Part shown: piece by piece, positions 3,642 through 16,281 of the stretch | Position numbering within the stretch: the first letter of the stretch is position 1 | Layout: the number at the start of each line of letters is the position of its first letter | Assembly: GCA_016935665.1 (NCBI GenBank) | Contig: JAFGQN010000174.1 | Coordinates: 1 to 64,000, forward strand | DNA: 64,000 nucleotides | Reading direction: 5' to 3' | Source: Deltaproteobacteria bacterium | GTDB taxonomy: Bacteria > Myxococcota_A > Polyangia > JAAYKL01 | The notes under the pieces: model-generated | The model's database searches: none | Seen by the model: only the letters and a program-made list of their open reading frames with translations | Told to the model about the DNA's origin: nothing | Translations under genes and position numbers: made by a program

Positions 3642-5174
3642 TTATTCTTTCTGGAAGACGCGGACGTAGTCGACGACGTAGTGGGTGGGGAAGTAGGCGC
3701 TGGAGGCGTCGCCGCCGGCGGTGCCGCCGATGGCCAGGTTGACCAGGATATAGTGGGGCTGTCTGAAGGGGGCGAAACCGTCGGGATTGCGCATGTCGTC
3801 AATCCAGGTCTGATTCAGCTCATCGCCATCCAGCAGCAGGCGAATCTGTTCGTCATCCCACTCCATGCGCCAGATATGAAATTTGGCGTCCCAGTCATCC
3901 ACCCCCAAAGCGCTGATGGCTTTGAACGCGCCATCCCATTTGGCCACCCATCGTTCGTTGGTGCCACAGGCCACATTGGCGTGAATCCCGCCGTTGTAGT
4001 ATTCCATGATATCCACCTCACCATTGCTGGGCCACTCCTCTTTTTCCCCCAGGGTCCAAAACGCGGGCCACAGTCCCTCTTCGGCCACCAGCCGCGCCCG
4101 CATTTCAATAATGCCGTATTTAAACGTCTGTTTGGACATGGTGCGCAAACTGGATGACGTGTAGTCCCCCTCCGGCGCGGGCTCACGTCTCCCCTGGATA
4201 ATTAGAAATCCCGATTGGTTCCAGGCGTTGTCTTCCTGATAGTACTGCCACTCTTCGTTGCGCACATACCCCTTTTCAAACCCCCAATTGGCATTGTCGG
4301 GACGGCCGTCTTCATTAAATTCGTCGGACCAGGCCAGTTGGTAACCATCTGGAACCGAAATGGCATCGTCCCGCCCGGGGATACATGTGTTGAACGCCAC
4401 GTCGCGACAGCGAATTCGTGCATCTCCCCAGTCTGCGTGATCATTGCCATTATCGCCATCGTCTCCGGCGACAAGCTGCAATTCAGTCACATCTGAAATG
4501 TCCACCTCCACAGCCACCGGATCGTCGGAACCGCCTATGGCGTCGGTCTGGTGCAGCAGGGCGCCGTCTCCATAAACCGCGAACACCACCTTGCCTTTGG
4601 ATTTCATTTCTTCGTCTATTCCCACCTCGGCAATAAAGCTATCGCATTGTCCGTTGAGAATGTATCGCACGTCTGCTGGGGCATGGACGCCCAGACCCTT
4701 GCTGTACACTGAACCGGCAATAATCAGTGGCCCCCCATCCTTTTCGGCCTGCTCCCCATTGCTCAAATCCTTTTCCACGGGTCCCCATGCGTTGGTGGAT
4801 GCGGCGATTTCGCATAAATCGCTCAGGTACACCTCTTTGGAGAAAGGGCCAGTCCCTGCTGGTGGGCCGGTATCTGTATCCCCATCGCCATCCGAGTCGG
4901 TATCGCCATCTGTATCTGTATCGGTATCGCCATCGGTATCGGCATCACCATCCGTATCGGTATCGCTATCCGCATCGGCATCACCATCCGTATCGGTATC
5001 GCCGTCGACATCGGTGTCGCTATCCGCATCGGCATCGGCATCGGCATCCGTATCGGCATCGCCTATTCCACTGCTGTCGCTGAATTCCGCTGTCGATTCA
5101 TCGGTATTGTCCGATTTTCCACATGCTCCCACCAGCGGTATCAATAGAATCAAAAACAAGCGCCAGATTTTCAT
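3642..5174 (-). CDS. Secreted lipoprotein beta-glucanase: Asp/Thr linker, NPCBM-like domain, GH16 catalytic domain
   Basis: The 510-residue product has a lipoprotein signal ending LVGAC at Cys18. A low-complexity Asp/Thr/Ala/Gly linker covers roughly residues 37-105. An NPCBM-type carbohydrate-binding domain follows (WGPVEKDLSNG, YSKGLGVHAP) to about residue 265, and the C-terminal half is a GH16 jelly roll. The GH16 active-site motif EVDIMEY lies near residue 385 with both glutamates and the central Asp intact, so the enzyme should be catalytic. GH16 members of this kind usually cut beta-1,3- or mixed-linkage glucans such as laminarin. Location is predicted to be the outer membrane or cell surface. 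The linker DNA is an imperfect short tandem repeat. Confidence 0.9.
   Translation of the reverse strand: MKIWRLFLILLIPLVGACGKSDNTDESTAEFSDSSGIGDADTDADADADADSDTDVDGDTDTDGDADADSDTDTDGDADTDGDTDTDTDGDTDSDGDGDTDTGPPAGTGPFSKEVYLSDLCEIAASTNAWGPVEKDLSNGEQAEKDGGPLIIAGSVYSKGLGVHAPADVRYILNGQCDSFIAEVGIDEEMKSKGKVVFAVYGDGALLHQTDAIGGSDDPVAVEVDISDVTELQLVAGDDGDNGNDHADWGDARIRCRDVAFNTCIPGRDDAISVPDGYQLAWSDEFNEDGRPDNANWGFEKGYVRNEEWQYYQEDNAWNQSGFLIIQGRREPAPEGDYTSSSLRTMSKQTFKYGIIEMRARLVAEEGLWPAFWTLGEKEEWPSNGEVDIMEYYNGGIHANVACGTNERWVAKWDGAFKAISALGVDDWDAKFHIWRMEWDDEQIRLLLDGDELNQTWIDDMRNPDGFAPFRQPHYILVNLAIGGTAGGDASSAYFPTHYVVDYVRVFQKE
4864..5070. repeat. Short tandem repeats encoding the Asp/Thr/Gly/Ala linker
   Basis: Imperfect hexamer-based units (variants of CATCCGTATCGGTATCGC on the plus strand) run through this stretch. 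They encode alternating Asp with Thr, Gly, Ala or Ser in the GH16 lipoprotein linker. Unit number could vary by slippage, and in-frame changes would only alter linker length. Confidence 0.75.
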
Positions 5175-5334
5175 GTCAGTGCCTTCCGTCTCCCGGTATT
5201 TTCAACAGTACCGCAATTGCAGCGTTAGGTCTATGGGGACGTAACAATCGATGGGGGTAAACATCGCCCCACTGCTTTTTTGTGCTACCTTTTTCGATAC
5301 AGACATCTGCTTTCACTTAGTGAGGAGCGACAAC

Positions 5335-7491
5335 TTGACCAAACCCATCTGGTATTGCCCGATATGTTTTATTGAGGGAACCGACGAAGGCGTCACTCGG
5401 TGTCCGGAAGACGGAACACCGGTGGAACTGGTGTCCACGCGCGAAGCCAAATGGATTGGAAAGACCATCGATAAAAAATACAAAGTCGTTCGGTTTGTTG
5501 GGGCCGGCGGCATGGCAGACGTTTTCGAAGTGGAAAAGCTCACCACTCAGAAGCACCTGGCGCTGAAGCTGTTAAAATCCTCACTGAACCGCGATTCTCA
5601 ACTCAATAGCCGGTTCCGCCAGGAAGCCATGATGATTTCGCTGATAGCCCATCGAAATATCGTTGCCATGGAAGACTTTGGCGTGCTGGAGGACAACACC
5701 AGCTATATGGTTATGGAATTGTTGCATGGATACACAGTGGGTGACGCCTTGAAGATGGGGCCTATTCCAGCGGAAACAGCGTTTCGAATTATGCTGCAGG
5801 CATGTGAGGGAATGGCGGCTGCACACGAACGGGGTGTATTGCATCGGGATTTGAAACCCGAAAACATTTTTCTTCACAGCACCGGCGGTGATGGTCCTCC
5901 CGTTGTGAAAATTCTGGATTTGGGTATTGGCAAACTGTTTAATAATCGCACTGCGAGGGGATTGACCCTCAGTGGCATGGTGATTGGCACCCCGCAGTAT
6001 ATGTCCCCCGAACAGTGCAAGGGGCATGATGCGGGAGTGCCATCCGACATATACTCCCTTGGCATCGTTCTATATGAGATGCTTTTTGGATGCGCGCCGT
6101 TCGATGACGAGTCGCCGTTGTTAATCCTTCCCCGCCAAATCAGCGAGACACCCTATTGGGACGACGGATTGGCCACCAGGCAGCACATACCCGAGAACGC
6201 CAAACCAGTGATACTCAAGGCGCTGGCCAAGAATCCTGCCGAACGCCACGAAACCATGCTGGATTTGCAAAAAGATATTTCCGGTTTGCTCAGTCTCGTC
6301 CGCCGTGGGCCGCAGTACCGGTTTCCCAGTATTGAAAAAGTGCGGCGGACCGTTCGTCATTTGGAACACAAGAGTACGCCGTCGATGGTGCATTCCAGAA
6401 CCGAGCCGCTGATGCCCGTGCCGGATGCAGCCACAGAAGATACCGGTGAATCCCGGACCATCACGCTCGAGTTTACCAAAGGTGTATACTGGGTGGGCCG
6501 GCGTCATCACACGCAACTGGAGTGCAATCCGTATTTGAGGGTATTTACCGGAAAGGGCAACACAATTGCCATGCTCATCGATCCGGGACCTCCCAGGGAC
6601 CTGGACAGCATTACCAAAAATATCAGTAGCGTTATAGAATCCGTTGAAAATCTGAATTACATTTACATCAACCATCAGGACCCGGATGTGGCTGGCAATG
6701 CGGCGGAGCTTCAGCGCACAAATCCCCAGGTCCAGGTGATCTGCTCCGAGGATACGTGGCGTATGGCGCGTCATTACGGCCTTGATGCCAAACGCTATAT
6801 CTCCCTTGAGAGTATACCGGGACATCGTATTGGCTTCAGTACGGGACATCACATCTGTTTTATTCCCACTCCGTTCTGCCACGCCAGGGGCGCTGCCATG
6901 GTGTACGACCCCGACAGTCGAGTGCTGTTCTCCGGGGATTTGTTTGCAGGCGCCTCCGCCAGGGATGGATATTTTTTTAGCGATGACGACATTGATGGGA
7001 TTCAACTCTATCATCAGGTGTACATGCCCAGTGGCCGGGCGCTGCGGCGCGCACTGCAGAGAATCGCTGAGTTGAATCCGGCGCCCAGGGCCATCGCCCC
7101 TCAACATGGCAATATTATTTCACAAAAAAAGATTCCGGTCGTTATGGACGCGTTGCAGAAACTGCGGGTCGGAATGGATCTTATTGAATACAATGAGCAA
7201 AAACCGGAGATGCTGGCGCTGGCCAACGAAGTGATGCGCACCATTTCCAAAGTGGCCGGGCAAAAGGCGTCACGGGATTTAGCCACACGCCTGAAGCAGG
7301 ACCAGCATCTCAAAAGTCAATTCGAAATTCGGGACCCCGGAGAAATCGTTGCCTTTAAAATTGACAGTATCCGCGCCATTGAATCCCTGTTTCACTCTGC
7401 GGAAACCCTGGTATCCGAATCAAAGATTCCCGAACTGATGCTCACTTTCAATCTCATTCGTAAACGCATGCATCAGATGTACAAATCATAA
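5335..7491 (+). CDS. Hanks-type Ser/Thr protein kinase fused to a di-iron ODP/FprA-like metallo-beta-lactamase domain
   Basis: The 718-residue product begins with a Cys4 zinc-ribbon-like segment (CPIC then CPEDG, residues 7-30). A complete kinase domain follows: Gly loop GAGGMADVF at residue 56, catalytic HRDLKPEN at 170, and DLGIGK in place of DFG. After a short linker comes a metallo-beta-lactamase fold of the ODP (oxygen-binding di-iron) type: NHQDPD near residue 446, FCHARG near 514, SGDLFAG near 533 and PQHG near 589. A helical tail ends the protein. In FprA and ODP proteins these residues bind two irons that react with O2 or NO. I infer an oxygen- or NO-responsive kinase. TTG 5335 is chosen because GAGGAG lies seven bases upstream. 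It is followed by a TPR-PEGA gene and a lipoprotein gene. Confidence 0.85.
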   Translation: MTKPIWYCPICFIEGTDEGVTRCPEDGTPVELVSTREAKWIGKTIDKKYKVVRFVGAGGMADVFEVEKLTTQKHLALKLLKSSLNRDSQLNSRFRQEAMMISLIAHRNIVAMEDFGVLEDNTSYMVMELLHGYTVGDALKMGPIPAETAFRIMLQACEGMAAAHERGVLHRDLKPENIFLHSTGGDGPPVVKILDLGIGKLFNNRTARGLTLSGMVIGTPQYMSPEQCKGHDAGVPSDIYSLGIVLYEMLFGCAPFDDESPLLILPRQISETPYWDDGLATRQHIPENAKPVILKALAKNPAERHETMLDLQKDISGLLSLVRRGPQYRFPSIEKVRRTVRHLEHKSTPSMVHSRTEPLMPVPDAATEDTGESRTITLEFTKGVYWVGRRHHTQLECNPYLRVFTGKGNTIAMLIDPGPPRDLDSITKNISSVIESVENLNYIYINHQDPDVAGNAAELQRTNPQVQVICSEDTWRMARHYGLDAKRYISLESIPGHRIGFSTGHHICFIPTPFCHARGAAMVYDPDSRVLFSGDLFAGASARDGYFFSDDDIDGIQLYHQVYMPSGRALRRALQRIAELNPAPRAIAPQHGNIISQKKIPVVMDALQKLRVGMDLIEYNEQKPEMLALANEVMRTISKVAGQKASRDLATRLKQDQHLKSQFEIRDPGEIVAFKIDSIRAIESLFHSAETLVSESKIPELMLTFNLIRKRMHQMYKS

Positions 7492-14011: not shown

Positions 14012-14047
14012 GGCGCGAAATGCAGCGATTGCCGCCGCTGTTTCGCC
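14012..14047 (-). terminator. Two-part hairpin at the 3' end of the GGDEF gene
   Basis: GGCGCGAAA (14012-14020) pairs with TTTCGCC (14041-14047), with one bulged pair, and inside it CAGCG pairs with CGCTG. The structure overlaps the stop codon of the GGDEF gene. No U-tract follows on the minus strand, so it may be an RNA-stabilising hairpin or a weak terminator rather than a canonical Rho-independent one. Confidence 0.4.
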
Positions 14048-16281
14048 TAGCAGCCGCGGCGACGCTTGATTTTGCCCAGCATCTGGTCTGCATTTTCGAG
14101 CAGTTGACCAATTGAGAGGGATGATGTGTCGGTCTGATGGGTGTAGCCGATGGAGATGGAGAGCTGGTACGGCCGCAATTTTTTCTGGTTGAAGTCCAAA
14201 AAAGTGCTGTCAATGCGGTCCACAATGCCATCGCAATCCCGTTCATCCATCCCAACGGCGATAATGGTGAATTCATCGCCGCCAATGCGGGCAATGATGT
14301 CCTGGTCGCGAATGGAATTTTTCAGCAGTTCAGCAGTTTTCGAAATGGCGAAATCCCCCTCGGCGTGACCATAAGTGTCATTAATGGCTTTAAGACGGTT
14401 CATATCACCGTACATCATGGTCACCGATGAACAGGAGCGCTTGGCCTGACTGATGAGGTGGTTGCCCAGATATGTGAATCCCCGGCGGTTGTAGAGACCG
14501 GTCAATTCATCGCGCAGTGACATTTCCCGCAGTTCGTGCACCAGGTTGTGTCCGCGCAACGCATTCCCAATATGGATGCGCAGCTCTTCGTATACATAGT
14601 GTGGAAGCTCCAGGGCCCGCTGGAAAATGGCATATCCATACGTCCGACGCTCAAACACGATGGGAAAGAGCAAATGATTTTTACGGATGCCTGAATTCCA
14701 CACCTGCTCGGGTAAAATAGTGCGGGTGGGGAACTGAATGCTGTCGCCAATATCCACAAACGTTCCGTTTTCGTTGAAGGACAGCACCAGAGAGGAGTTG
14801 GCGGGAATCTCCAGCATATCGAGGTTGATCCCTTCCCGGTCGGTCCCAAAGAGCACCAGGTGACAGGCTTTGATACCGATATTGGGCAGATTTTCCTTAA
14901 GTACTTTTTTCACGCGATCGATGTCGAAAGCGGTAATCAGCGACAACATGATGTTGCGAATCAGGGCGCGGCTGTCGTCTTTGGCCAGCGCATCGCTCAG
15001 ATTCATGCGCAAGACAAAGTCGCTGGCAATCATCCGTGCCTGGTTGAAAATACCGTCCACCACCGGTGCAGATTCCGGCGAGCCCACAAACCCGCGCCAG
15101 CGGGCTGAGAAACTGGTGAGCACATCCTGCCACACTTCGGCGCCACCGCCGGCGGAGATGTGCTGCACAATACTGATGGTCAATAGTTCCAGGAAGCGAT
15201 TGGGGGTTTCATCATCGTCAGAAGACGCAATGTCCTGCTCCAGGGCCGCGATTAATTTTTCGGCCCAGTCGCTGGCCACCTTCGGCTGAAACTCTTTGTT
15301 GTCGTCGAGAATAAGACGAACACAGTGATCGATAAACTCTTTGCGACCGCTTTCAGCGTCTATGCGAATGGATGCGGTGATTTCGTTGATGAGTCGGGCG
15401 TCCACCAGATGCGAATGAATACAGCCACAACTCTGCCTGGGAATAAATTTGGTGGACACAAACACATCGTGCTTTATCTCGTGATCAGCTATGATCTTCA
15501 TCATGGTTTCGGTGGCGATTCGCCCAATGGCATACAGCGGCTGACTGATGGTGGTGAGCGATGGTACATGATTACGCGCTTCGGGAACATCGTCGAAACC
15601 GGCCACGCACACATCTCCCGGGACGCGAATGTGATGTTTGGAAAATTCGGCGATTACCCCAAGGGCTGTGGAATCATTGACGCACAGCACCGCATCCGGC
15701 AGAGAATCCATGGCCAGCATTTTACGAGCGGCTTCGCTTCCGGACTCTTTAATGAAGTGACCGGAAAAAATTAACGTGTCGTCCACCGACAGATGATTGG
15801 CGGCCAACTCCGACTTGAATGCGTGAAAACGCTGTTCGGATTCCGTATGGTTGATGAGGCCCTGAACAAAGGCAAAACTTTTGCAATTGTGTTCGTGAAT
15901 GAGATGCTGCACCGTTTTGCGAATGCCCAGCTCATTGTCGATGAGCACGGAGGGGATGCCTTCCACCTTTTGAGATATGCAAATCATGGGACAGTTATTG
16001 AGCGATTTACAAAACGAACTGAGTTCATCCGCGTTGAAATGGTCAGAGAATACACCGGTGTATATGATGAGTCCGTCCAGCTCCAGATGACGGGTTAACT
16101 CGCGGATGATATCATAGTGGGGTTCGAAAGTGGCCACTTTATTTTGGGATGTGGCAATGAACGTCAGTAAATCAATGTCATTTTCTTTGGCATAATCGGC
16201 GACACCGGGCCAGACAAGGGTCTGGCAATCGTCGTGGACTGCGGTAAAAATAGCAGCTATCAAAGGTCGCTTTCGGTTCAT
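14047..16281 (-). CDS. LacI-like ligand-binding domain fused to a diguanylate cyclase (GGDEF)
   Basis: The 744-residue protein begins with a periplasmic-binding-protein/LacI sugar-sensor fold (about residues 5-280; PDAVLCVNDSTALGVIAEF and VCVAGFDDVPEARN are typical) but has no HTH and no signal peptide, so it is a cytosolic sensor. A middle region of about 280 residues is unassigned. The C terminus is a GGDEF domain with LTGLYNRRGF, an intact GGDEF near residue 667 and the RxxD inhibitory site RDQD five residues before it. It should make cyclic di-GMP in response to a small ligand, probably a sugar-like compound. No EAL or HD-GYP domain is present. The gene stands alone, 140 bases upstream of the NtrC-type regulator. 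Confidence 0.9.
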   Translation of the reverse strand: MNRKRPLIAAIFTAVHDDCQTLVWPGVADYAKENDIDLLTFIATSQNKVATFEPHYDIIRELTRHLELDGLIIYTGVFSDHFNADELSSFCKSLNNCPMICISQKVEGIPSVLIDNELGIRKTVQHLIHEHNCKSFAFVQGLINHTESEQRFHAFKSELAANHLSVDDTLIFSGHFIKESGSEAARKMLAMDSLPDAVLCVNDSTALGVIAEFSKHHIRVPGDVCVAGFDDVPEARNHVPSLTTISQPLYAIGRIATETMMKIIADHEIKHDVFVSTKFIPRQSCGCIHSHLVDARLINEITASIRIDAESGRKEFIDHCVRLILDDNKEFQPKVASDWAEKLIAALEQDIASSDDDETPNRFLELLTISIVQHISAGGGAEVWQDVLTSFSARWRGFVGSPESAPVVDGIFNQARMIASDFVLRMNLSDALAKDDSRALIRNIMLSLITAFDIDRVKKVLKENLPNIGIKACHLVLFGTDREGINLDMLEIPANSSLVLSFNENGTFVDIGDSIQFPTRTILPEQVWNSGIRKNHLLFPIVFERRTYGYAIFQRALELPHYVYEELRIHIGNALRGHNLVHELREMSLRDELTGLYNRRGFTYLGNHLISQAKRSCSSVTMMYGDMNRLKAINDTYGHAEGDFAISKTAELLKNSIRDQDIIARIGGDEFTIIAVGMDERDCDGIVDRIDSTFLDFNQKKLRPYQLSISIGYTHQTDTSSLSIGQLLENADQMLGKIKRRRGC

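Follow-up and report, generated by a model that had tools for sequence, protein, structure and literature searches.

The oxygen-binding di-iron protein (ODP) binds iron and oxygen directly and interacts with its receptors in a conformation-dependent manner (PMC6978683). The characterised ODPs of Treponema (6qnm, 6r9n) and Thermotoga maritima (6qrq, 6qwo) are stand-alone proteins of ~255 residues, and the Treponema protein acts on a cytoplasmic chemoreceptor and CheA. In the T. maritima ODP, an unusual glutamine ligand at a PQHG-type motif replaces the third histidine of motif 2 (PMC7785958). As PMC7319448 relates the work of Muok et al. 2019, one group of ODPs is fused to signal-transduction domains and serves as the input module of the fused protein, as we propose here. 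The ODP as a sensor and its fusion to signalling domains (PMC7319448) are already known. The flavodiiron proteins (FprA, ROO, flavorubredoxin) have a related di-iron metallo-β-lactamase (MBL) fold, together with a flavodoxin domain and an HxExDH iron motif.

Myxococcota carry many Hanks-type kinases, and to our knowledge the signals that switch them are largely unknown. On a check that was not exhaustive, we know of no characterised case in which a non-haem di-iron gas sensor is part of a bacterial Ser/Thr kinase. The protein described here is encoded within a 64,000-nucleotide stretch of myxococcotal DNA (the window). It shares with the PknB-like kinases of this phylum a complete kinase domain but differs from them in its sensor, a predicted metal-binding domain. 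That domain has the fold and the HQDPDV, His, Asp and PQHG motifs of the Treponema and Thermotoga ODPs; unlike them, it is covalently linked to a Ser/Thr kinase and followed by a 106-residue C-terminal extension. No published kinase–ODP fusion was found in the literature searched, which covered few of the subscription journals. What looks new is that the output is a Ser/Thr kinase, that this output recurs and that one relative lacks the ligands.

Domain architecture of the kinase–ODP protein

The fusion gene is a single unbroken open reading frame that begins with TTG and ends with TAA (Table 1). The TTG is a credible start, given the GAGGAG sequence that precedes it. Orthologues in two related genomes align with the window protein across the kinase, the ODP domain and the C-terminal tail, and the presence of such full-length orthologues in other genomes indicates that the architecture did not arise by chance.

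Table 1. Features of the fusion gene and its upstream neighbour (window coordinates; residues refer to the fusion protein)
Feature	Coordinates	Strand	Basis
Secreted NPCBM/GH16 protein, upstream neighbour	3642-5174	-	Asp/Thr/Ser-rich tandem linker precedes NPCBM and GH16
Putative ribosome-binding site, GAGGAG	5322-5327	+	Read from sequence; 7 bases 5' of TTG
Kinase–ODP fusion protein, 718 aa	5335-7491	+	Open frame; full-length orthologues, 62% and 50% identity
N-terminal ribbon, residues 8-26, CPIC...CPED	5356-5412	+	Sequence and orthologues; C8, C11, C23 and conserved Asp26
Hanks-type Ser/Thr kinase, residues 49-306	5479-6252	+	PF00069 E 1.5e-46, 159 bits; catalytic residues present
Predicted disordered kinase–ODP linker, residues 344-373	6364-6453	+	pLDDT <50 in full-length model
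ODP domain (oxygen-binding di-iron protein family), residues 395-592	6517-7110	+	PF19583 E 6.6e-51
Predicted metal ligands H447, D449, D451 (HQDPD)	6673-6687	+	H447 and D451 in 40/41 relatives; D449 in 41/41
Predicted metal ligand H516 (FCHARG)	6880-6882	+	41/41
Predicted bridging ligand D535 (SGDLF)	6937-6939	+	40/41
Q590 and H591 of PQHG	7102-7107	+	Q590 39/41, H591 41/41
C-terminal extension, residues 613-718 (106 residues)	7171-7488	+	Alignments A2, A4; helices and β-hairpin

The N-terminal half bears out the earlier note's description of a complete Hanks kinase. The catalytic set comprises Lys78 of the VAIK motif, αC Glu97, the HRD motif at residues 170–172 (catalytic D172), Asn177 and Asp195, which lies in a DLG sequence at the DFG position. 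By these residues and the strong Pkinase profile match the kinase is complete, and phosphorylation of Ser or Thr is predicted. All 24 alignment rows spanning the kinase keep these residues, apart from a cysteine in place of the HRD arginine in four. These four kinase–ODP relatives (L037, L039, L057 and L066) carry HCD and would be non-RD kinases, in which the window protein differs from them. No PASTA repeat, transmembrane segment or other usual sensor part was found in the window kinase protein.

Upstream of the kinase lies a short cysteine-containing ribbon that had been described as a Cys4 ribbon. Only three cysteines are present, with Asp26 at the fourth position, and the orthologues are alike in this respect; the motif is therefore Cys3-Asp, rather than a zinc ribbon with four cysteines in two CxxC-like knuckles. 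The C-x2-C...C-x2-D pattern also occurs in the nearest full-length relatives of the window kinase lineage (L036–L039), and none of the Pfam zinc-ribbon families matches the segment. In a full-length model (pTM 0.54) the kinase and ODP domains are joined by a disordered linker, so that a fixed contact between them is not predicted.

The C-terminal domain matches the ODP family over the entire profile (positions 1–194 of 194), with a score of 173.4 bits against a curated cut-off of 27.2. In a single-sequence search of the PDB, the T. maritima ODP (4e-22) and the T. denticola ODP (2.5e-21) scored above every flavodiiron protein, and a search with the family profile gave 6e-46 and 4e-41 for the same two proteins. 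The structures matched, by sequence as well as by predicted fold, are 6qrq/6qwo from T. maritima and 6qnm/6r9n. An AlphaFold2 model of the ODP domain plus tail has a mean pLDDT of 94, and ODP chains fill the first eight places among its Foldseek matches, with TM-scores normalised by target of 0.81–0.84; the peroxy di-iron form 6r9n is one of them. Against the Treponema and Thermotoga ODP structures as a set, the TM-scores by target are 0.78–0.84.

The motifs NHQDPD, FCHARG, SGDLFAG and PQHG noted earlier are all present in this domain. The first reads HQDPDV, where flavodiiron proteins have HxExDH and zinc MBL hydrolases have HxHxDH. No flavodoxin match was found, and the stretch that follows the ODP domain matches no Pfam family. 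Profile, ligand set and predicted fold thus agree in placing a kinase and an ODP-type di-iron domain on one reading frame, as had been suggested; membership of the FprA/flavodiiron family, also suggested, is not supported, in view of the HxDxDV and Gln-His ligands and the missing flavodoxin domain. On sequence and modelled fold, we assign the C-terminal domain as an ODP, neither an FprA nor a hydrolase.

The C-terminal extension is common to the stand-alone and kinase-fused ODPs of the window clade. It is lacking from the more distant ODPs of the class that are fused to methyl-accepting chemotaxis (MCP) or GGDEF domains (L138–L140). In these proteins, unlike the window protein, the ODP domain is N-terminal, and they match only the first 240–280 positions of a 343-position ODP-plus-tail profile.

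Predicted metal ligands and their conservation

The ligand pattern of the ODP family (H-x-D-x-D-V, His, Asp and the motif-5 Gln-His pair) is complete in the window protein, in the form of H447, D449, D451, H516, D535, Q590 and H591. All six His/Asp positions are intact in 40 of 41 aligned ODP sequences. The sole exception is a fusion from a genome of the same family as the window genome (G010), in which H447D, D451V, D535S and Q590R replacements are found while the remaining fold and tail still align; the contig that carries it stops inside the kinase. The loss of four ligands from a domain that has kept its fold and tail indicates that the domain can be retained without the metal site, and the G010 protein is either a regulator that works without metal or a sensor in decay.

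We observed two other departures from the ligand pattern. An ODP–PAS–MCP fusion (L138, 1851-4613, + strand) has HQAPEV and PQQG in its ODP motifs; its metal site looks degenerate, and its chemoreceptor part is intact. In genome G472, a second, diverged ODP gene encoding ~400 residues (L099, 81-1280, - strand) has histidine in place of the motif-5 glutamine and lies directly 3' of a kinase–ODP fusion gene on the same strand.

Distribution of the fusion and its kinase lineages

The earlier note had taken the combination of domains to be unfamiliar. A survey of the class with the ODP-plus-tail profile shows that it is not unique: strong matches (E <1e-95) occur in 28 of 318 genomes and comprise 21 fusions, among them the window protein, one fusion truncated where its contig stops, and six stand-alone ODPs. 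Ten more genomes with a match came from a sample of the phylum beyond the class; eight of them have fusions, so the kinase–ODP pairing recurs across Myxococcota. Among named records, relatives occur for example in a groundwater MAG of the Myxococcales, a Polyangiaceae MAG and Myxococcota MAGs. In the same collection, scanned with two short peptide patterns that will miss divergent relatives, one stand-alone ODP, from a Calditrichota MAG, shares the tail but does not belong to Myxococcota. A single-sequence scan of the genome contig collection returned no relatives, and an alignment-based scan of it returned 15 loci, of which 11 are ODP relatives and four are kinases only. The fusion is also present in large-genome relatives of other families and so need not be tied to anaerobes.

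A tree of 73 kinase domains, which included close non-ODP kinases from the same genomes, places the fused kinases in four positions. Lineage A contains the window protein and its relatives in three families and clusters with kinases from the same class that carry no ODP; lineage B is a large-genome family (f11), lineage C is another family of the phylum and lineage D is a single locus (L040) that lies beside a non-ODP kinase of that locus. In approximately unbiased (AU) tests, a single clade of all fused kinases was rejected (p-AU 2e-48), as was the union of A with B (p-AU 6.6e-4). It follows that the pairing arose, or the kinase was exchanged, more than once. The unions of A with C, B with C, A with D and C with D were not rejected, and with four of the pairings surviving we do not claim four independent fusions. 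The kinase tree and AU tests point to at least two kinase lineages joined to one ODP clade, or to a swap of the kinase. The ODP tree was left out of the count of fusions; two of its rows, L042 (cut by a contig end) and L099, had been wrongly labelled as stand-alone.

ODP domains of the window clade are also encoded next to kinases. Hyalangium versicolor and a Myxococcaceae MAG each encode the ODP as a separate gene, with a Ser/Thr kinase gene immediately downstream. In another genome (G158) a protoglobin–HisKA–HATPase gene comes after a stand-alone ODP gene on the same strand, its start codon ~80 bases past the ODP stop. Six other stand-alone ODPs of the window clade have no kinase within the flanks examined. 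Among the more distant ODPs of the class, two are fused to MCP and one to GGDEF domains. Recurrent coupling to kinases, the split gene pair, the protoglobin neighbour and the MCP and GGDEF fusions together mark the ODP as an interchangeable input module. The G158 locus (L082; 5223-6395 and 6461-8332, both - strand) continues beyond the protoglobin histidine kinase with a response-regulator hybrid kinase, and it places two different types of gas sensor side by side.

A candidate oxygen- and iron-responsive kinase

In the window protein both domains are intact, and the conserved ODP ligands are all present. The ODP domain and Ser/Thr kinases have been coupled repeatedly, either fused, in more than one lineage of kinases, or encoded side by side. 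We consider it probable that the window protein is a soluble, one-protein Ser/Thr sensor kinase that responds to O2 and Fe(II). By analogy with the characterised ODPs, the domain would hold two irons in its MBL fold and would switch, according to the supply of Fe(II) and O2, from an apo or reduced state to a peroxo adduct with O2 and back. The change would be passed on through the surface of the ODP domain and the C-terminal extension, probably by altered dimer geometry, and would raise or lower the activity of the N-terminal kinase. Coupling through dimerisation or through the conserved extension is our guess, and the direction of the effect, the dimer-based mechanism and the substrates are pure conjecture. 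Zinc can also occupy an MBL fold, and a crystal structure of the T. maritima ODP with zinc exists (6qwo), which counts against iron as the metal we infer.

The idea of a one-protein kinase responsive to O2 or NO had been raised from the sequence of the window alone. Its O2/Fe(II) half gains comparative support from the recurrent fusion, the split operon form and the ODPs fused to MCP and GGDEF domains; its NO half does not. More broadly, we lean slightly towards a picture in which soluble Ser/Thr kinases gated by a di-iron O2/Fe(II) sensor are widespread in Myxococcota and were assembled there more than once from different kinase lineages, with one lineage having reverted to a metal-free regulator.

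The alternative that fares best is that the ODP domain reports iron sufficiency or redox state, with the kinase reading the metal-loaded against the apo form and O2 merely oxidising the site. The title of Muok et al. 2019, as cited in PMC7666581, PMC7319448 and PMC9665402, calls ODP an Fe(II) and oxygen sensor, and structures have been solved separately for its apo, zinc and peroxo forms. The single point that separates the two readings is the G158 locus, where the protoglobin histidine kinase that follows the ODP gene belongs to a haem gas-sensor class and so points to a gas; we regard the iron or redox reading as unlikely.

That the protein senses NO is very unlikely. Flavodiiron proteins, which have a related fold, reduce NO, and NO reductases are among the PDB matches of the domain. 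The ligand set is nevertheless that of an ODP and not of a flavodiiron protein, the flavodoxin domain is absent, no NO-linked gene adjoins the fusion gene, and the RIC (YtfE-like) gene of the host lies beside a canonical flavodiiron protein, elsewhere than the fusion gene. Nothing in these data favours NO over O2 or Fe(II).

Still less likely is a role for the ODP domain as a docking or dimerisation platform only, with the metal site as a remnant. The G010 protein, which retains the domain after losing four ligands, and the conservation of the C-terminal extension with or without a fused kinase would fit such a role, but a remnant would show wider decay than the one exception observed among the 41 sequences. 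Least likely of all is that the kinase is joined to an MBL hydrolase of the di-zinc type: the broad Lactamase_B profile does match (2.5e-8), but with 34 bits to the 173 of the ODP profile, and the HQDPDV motif with Q590 is the di-iron ODP set, in keeping with the ODPs found as best matches to the predicted fold.

The setting of the gene offers no clue of its own. Downstream lie genes for a TPR protein and for a protein without a family match, the neighbouring genes of the G002 orthologue differ from those of the window gene, and none of the immediate neighbours of the window fusion gene is oxygen-related. Promoter and terminator scans at the fusion gene gave background-level results. The linker repeat of the upstream NPCBM/GH16 gene produces long spurious Ser-Val reading frames on the opposite strand. 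Elsewhere in the window we observed an apparent fusion of a LacI-type sugar-binding (periplasmic-binding-like) domain to a GGDEF-like C-terminus, judged by eye (14047-16281, - strand), and an aldo/keto reductase with a fused C-terminal 4Fe-4S ferredoxin-like domain (1184-2329, + strand).

In the host genome, which is 95% complete, no match was found for haem-copper oxidase subunit I; cytochrome bd subunit I matched once, weakly, and the [FeFe]-hydrogenase large subunit five times. On other contigs it encodes two true flavodiiron proteins, with HAEKDH and HSEMDH motifs; as read from translations, a RIC (YtfE)-like gene neighbours one and a ferritin-like gene the other. The missing haem-copper oxidase, the hydrogenase matches and the flavodiiron proteins fit an oxygen-sensitive lifestyle, and the gene content suggests that the organism lives anaerobically or by fermentation and would profit from sensing O2.

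The window protein names a candidate signal for a Myxococcota kinase, O2 or Fe(II), and its family supplies natural tests in the intact fusions, the split operon form and the ligand-less relative. If the proposed function is correct, the role of ODPs would widen from chemotaxis to Ser/Thr phosphorylation, and a single gas sensor would serve MCP, GGDEF and Ser/Thr kinase outputs within one bacterial class. The fusion would then give these bacteria a way to convert oxygen or iron status into protein phosphorylation.
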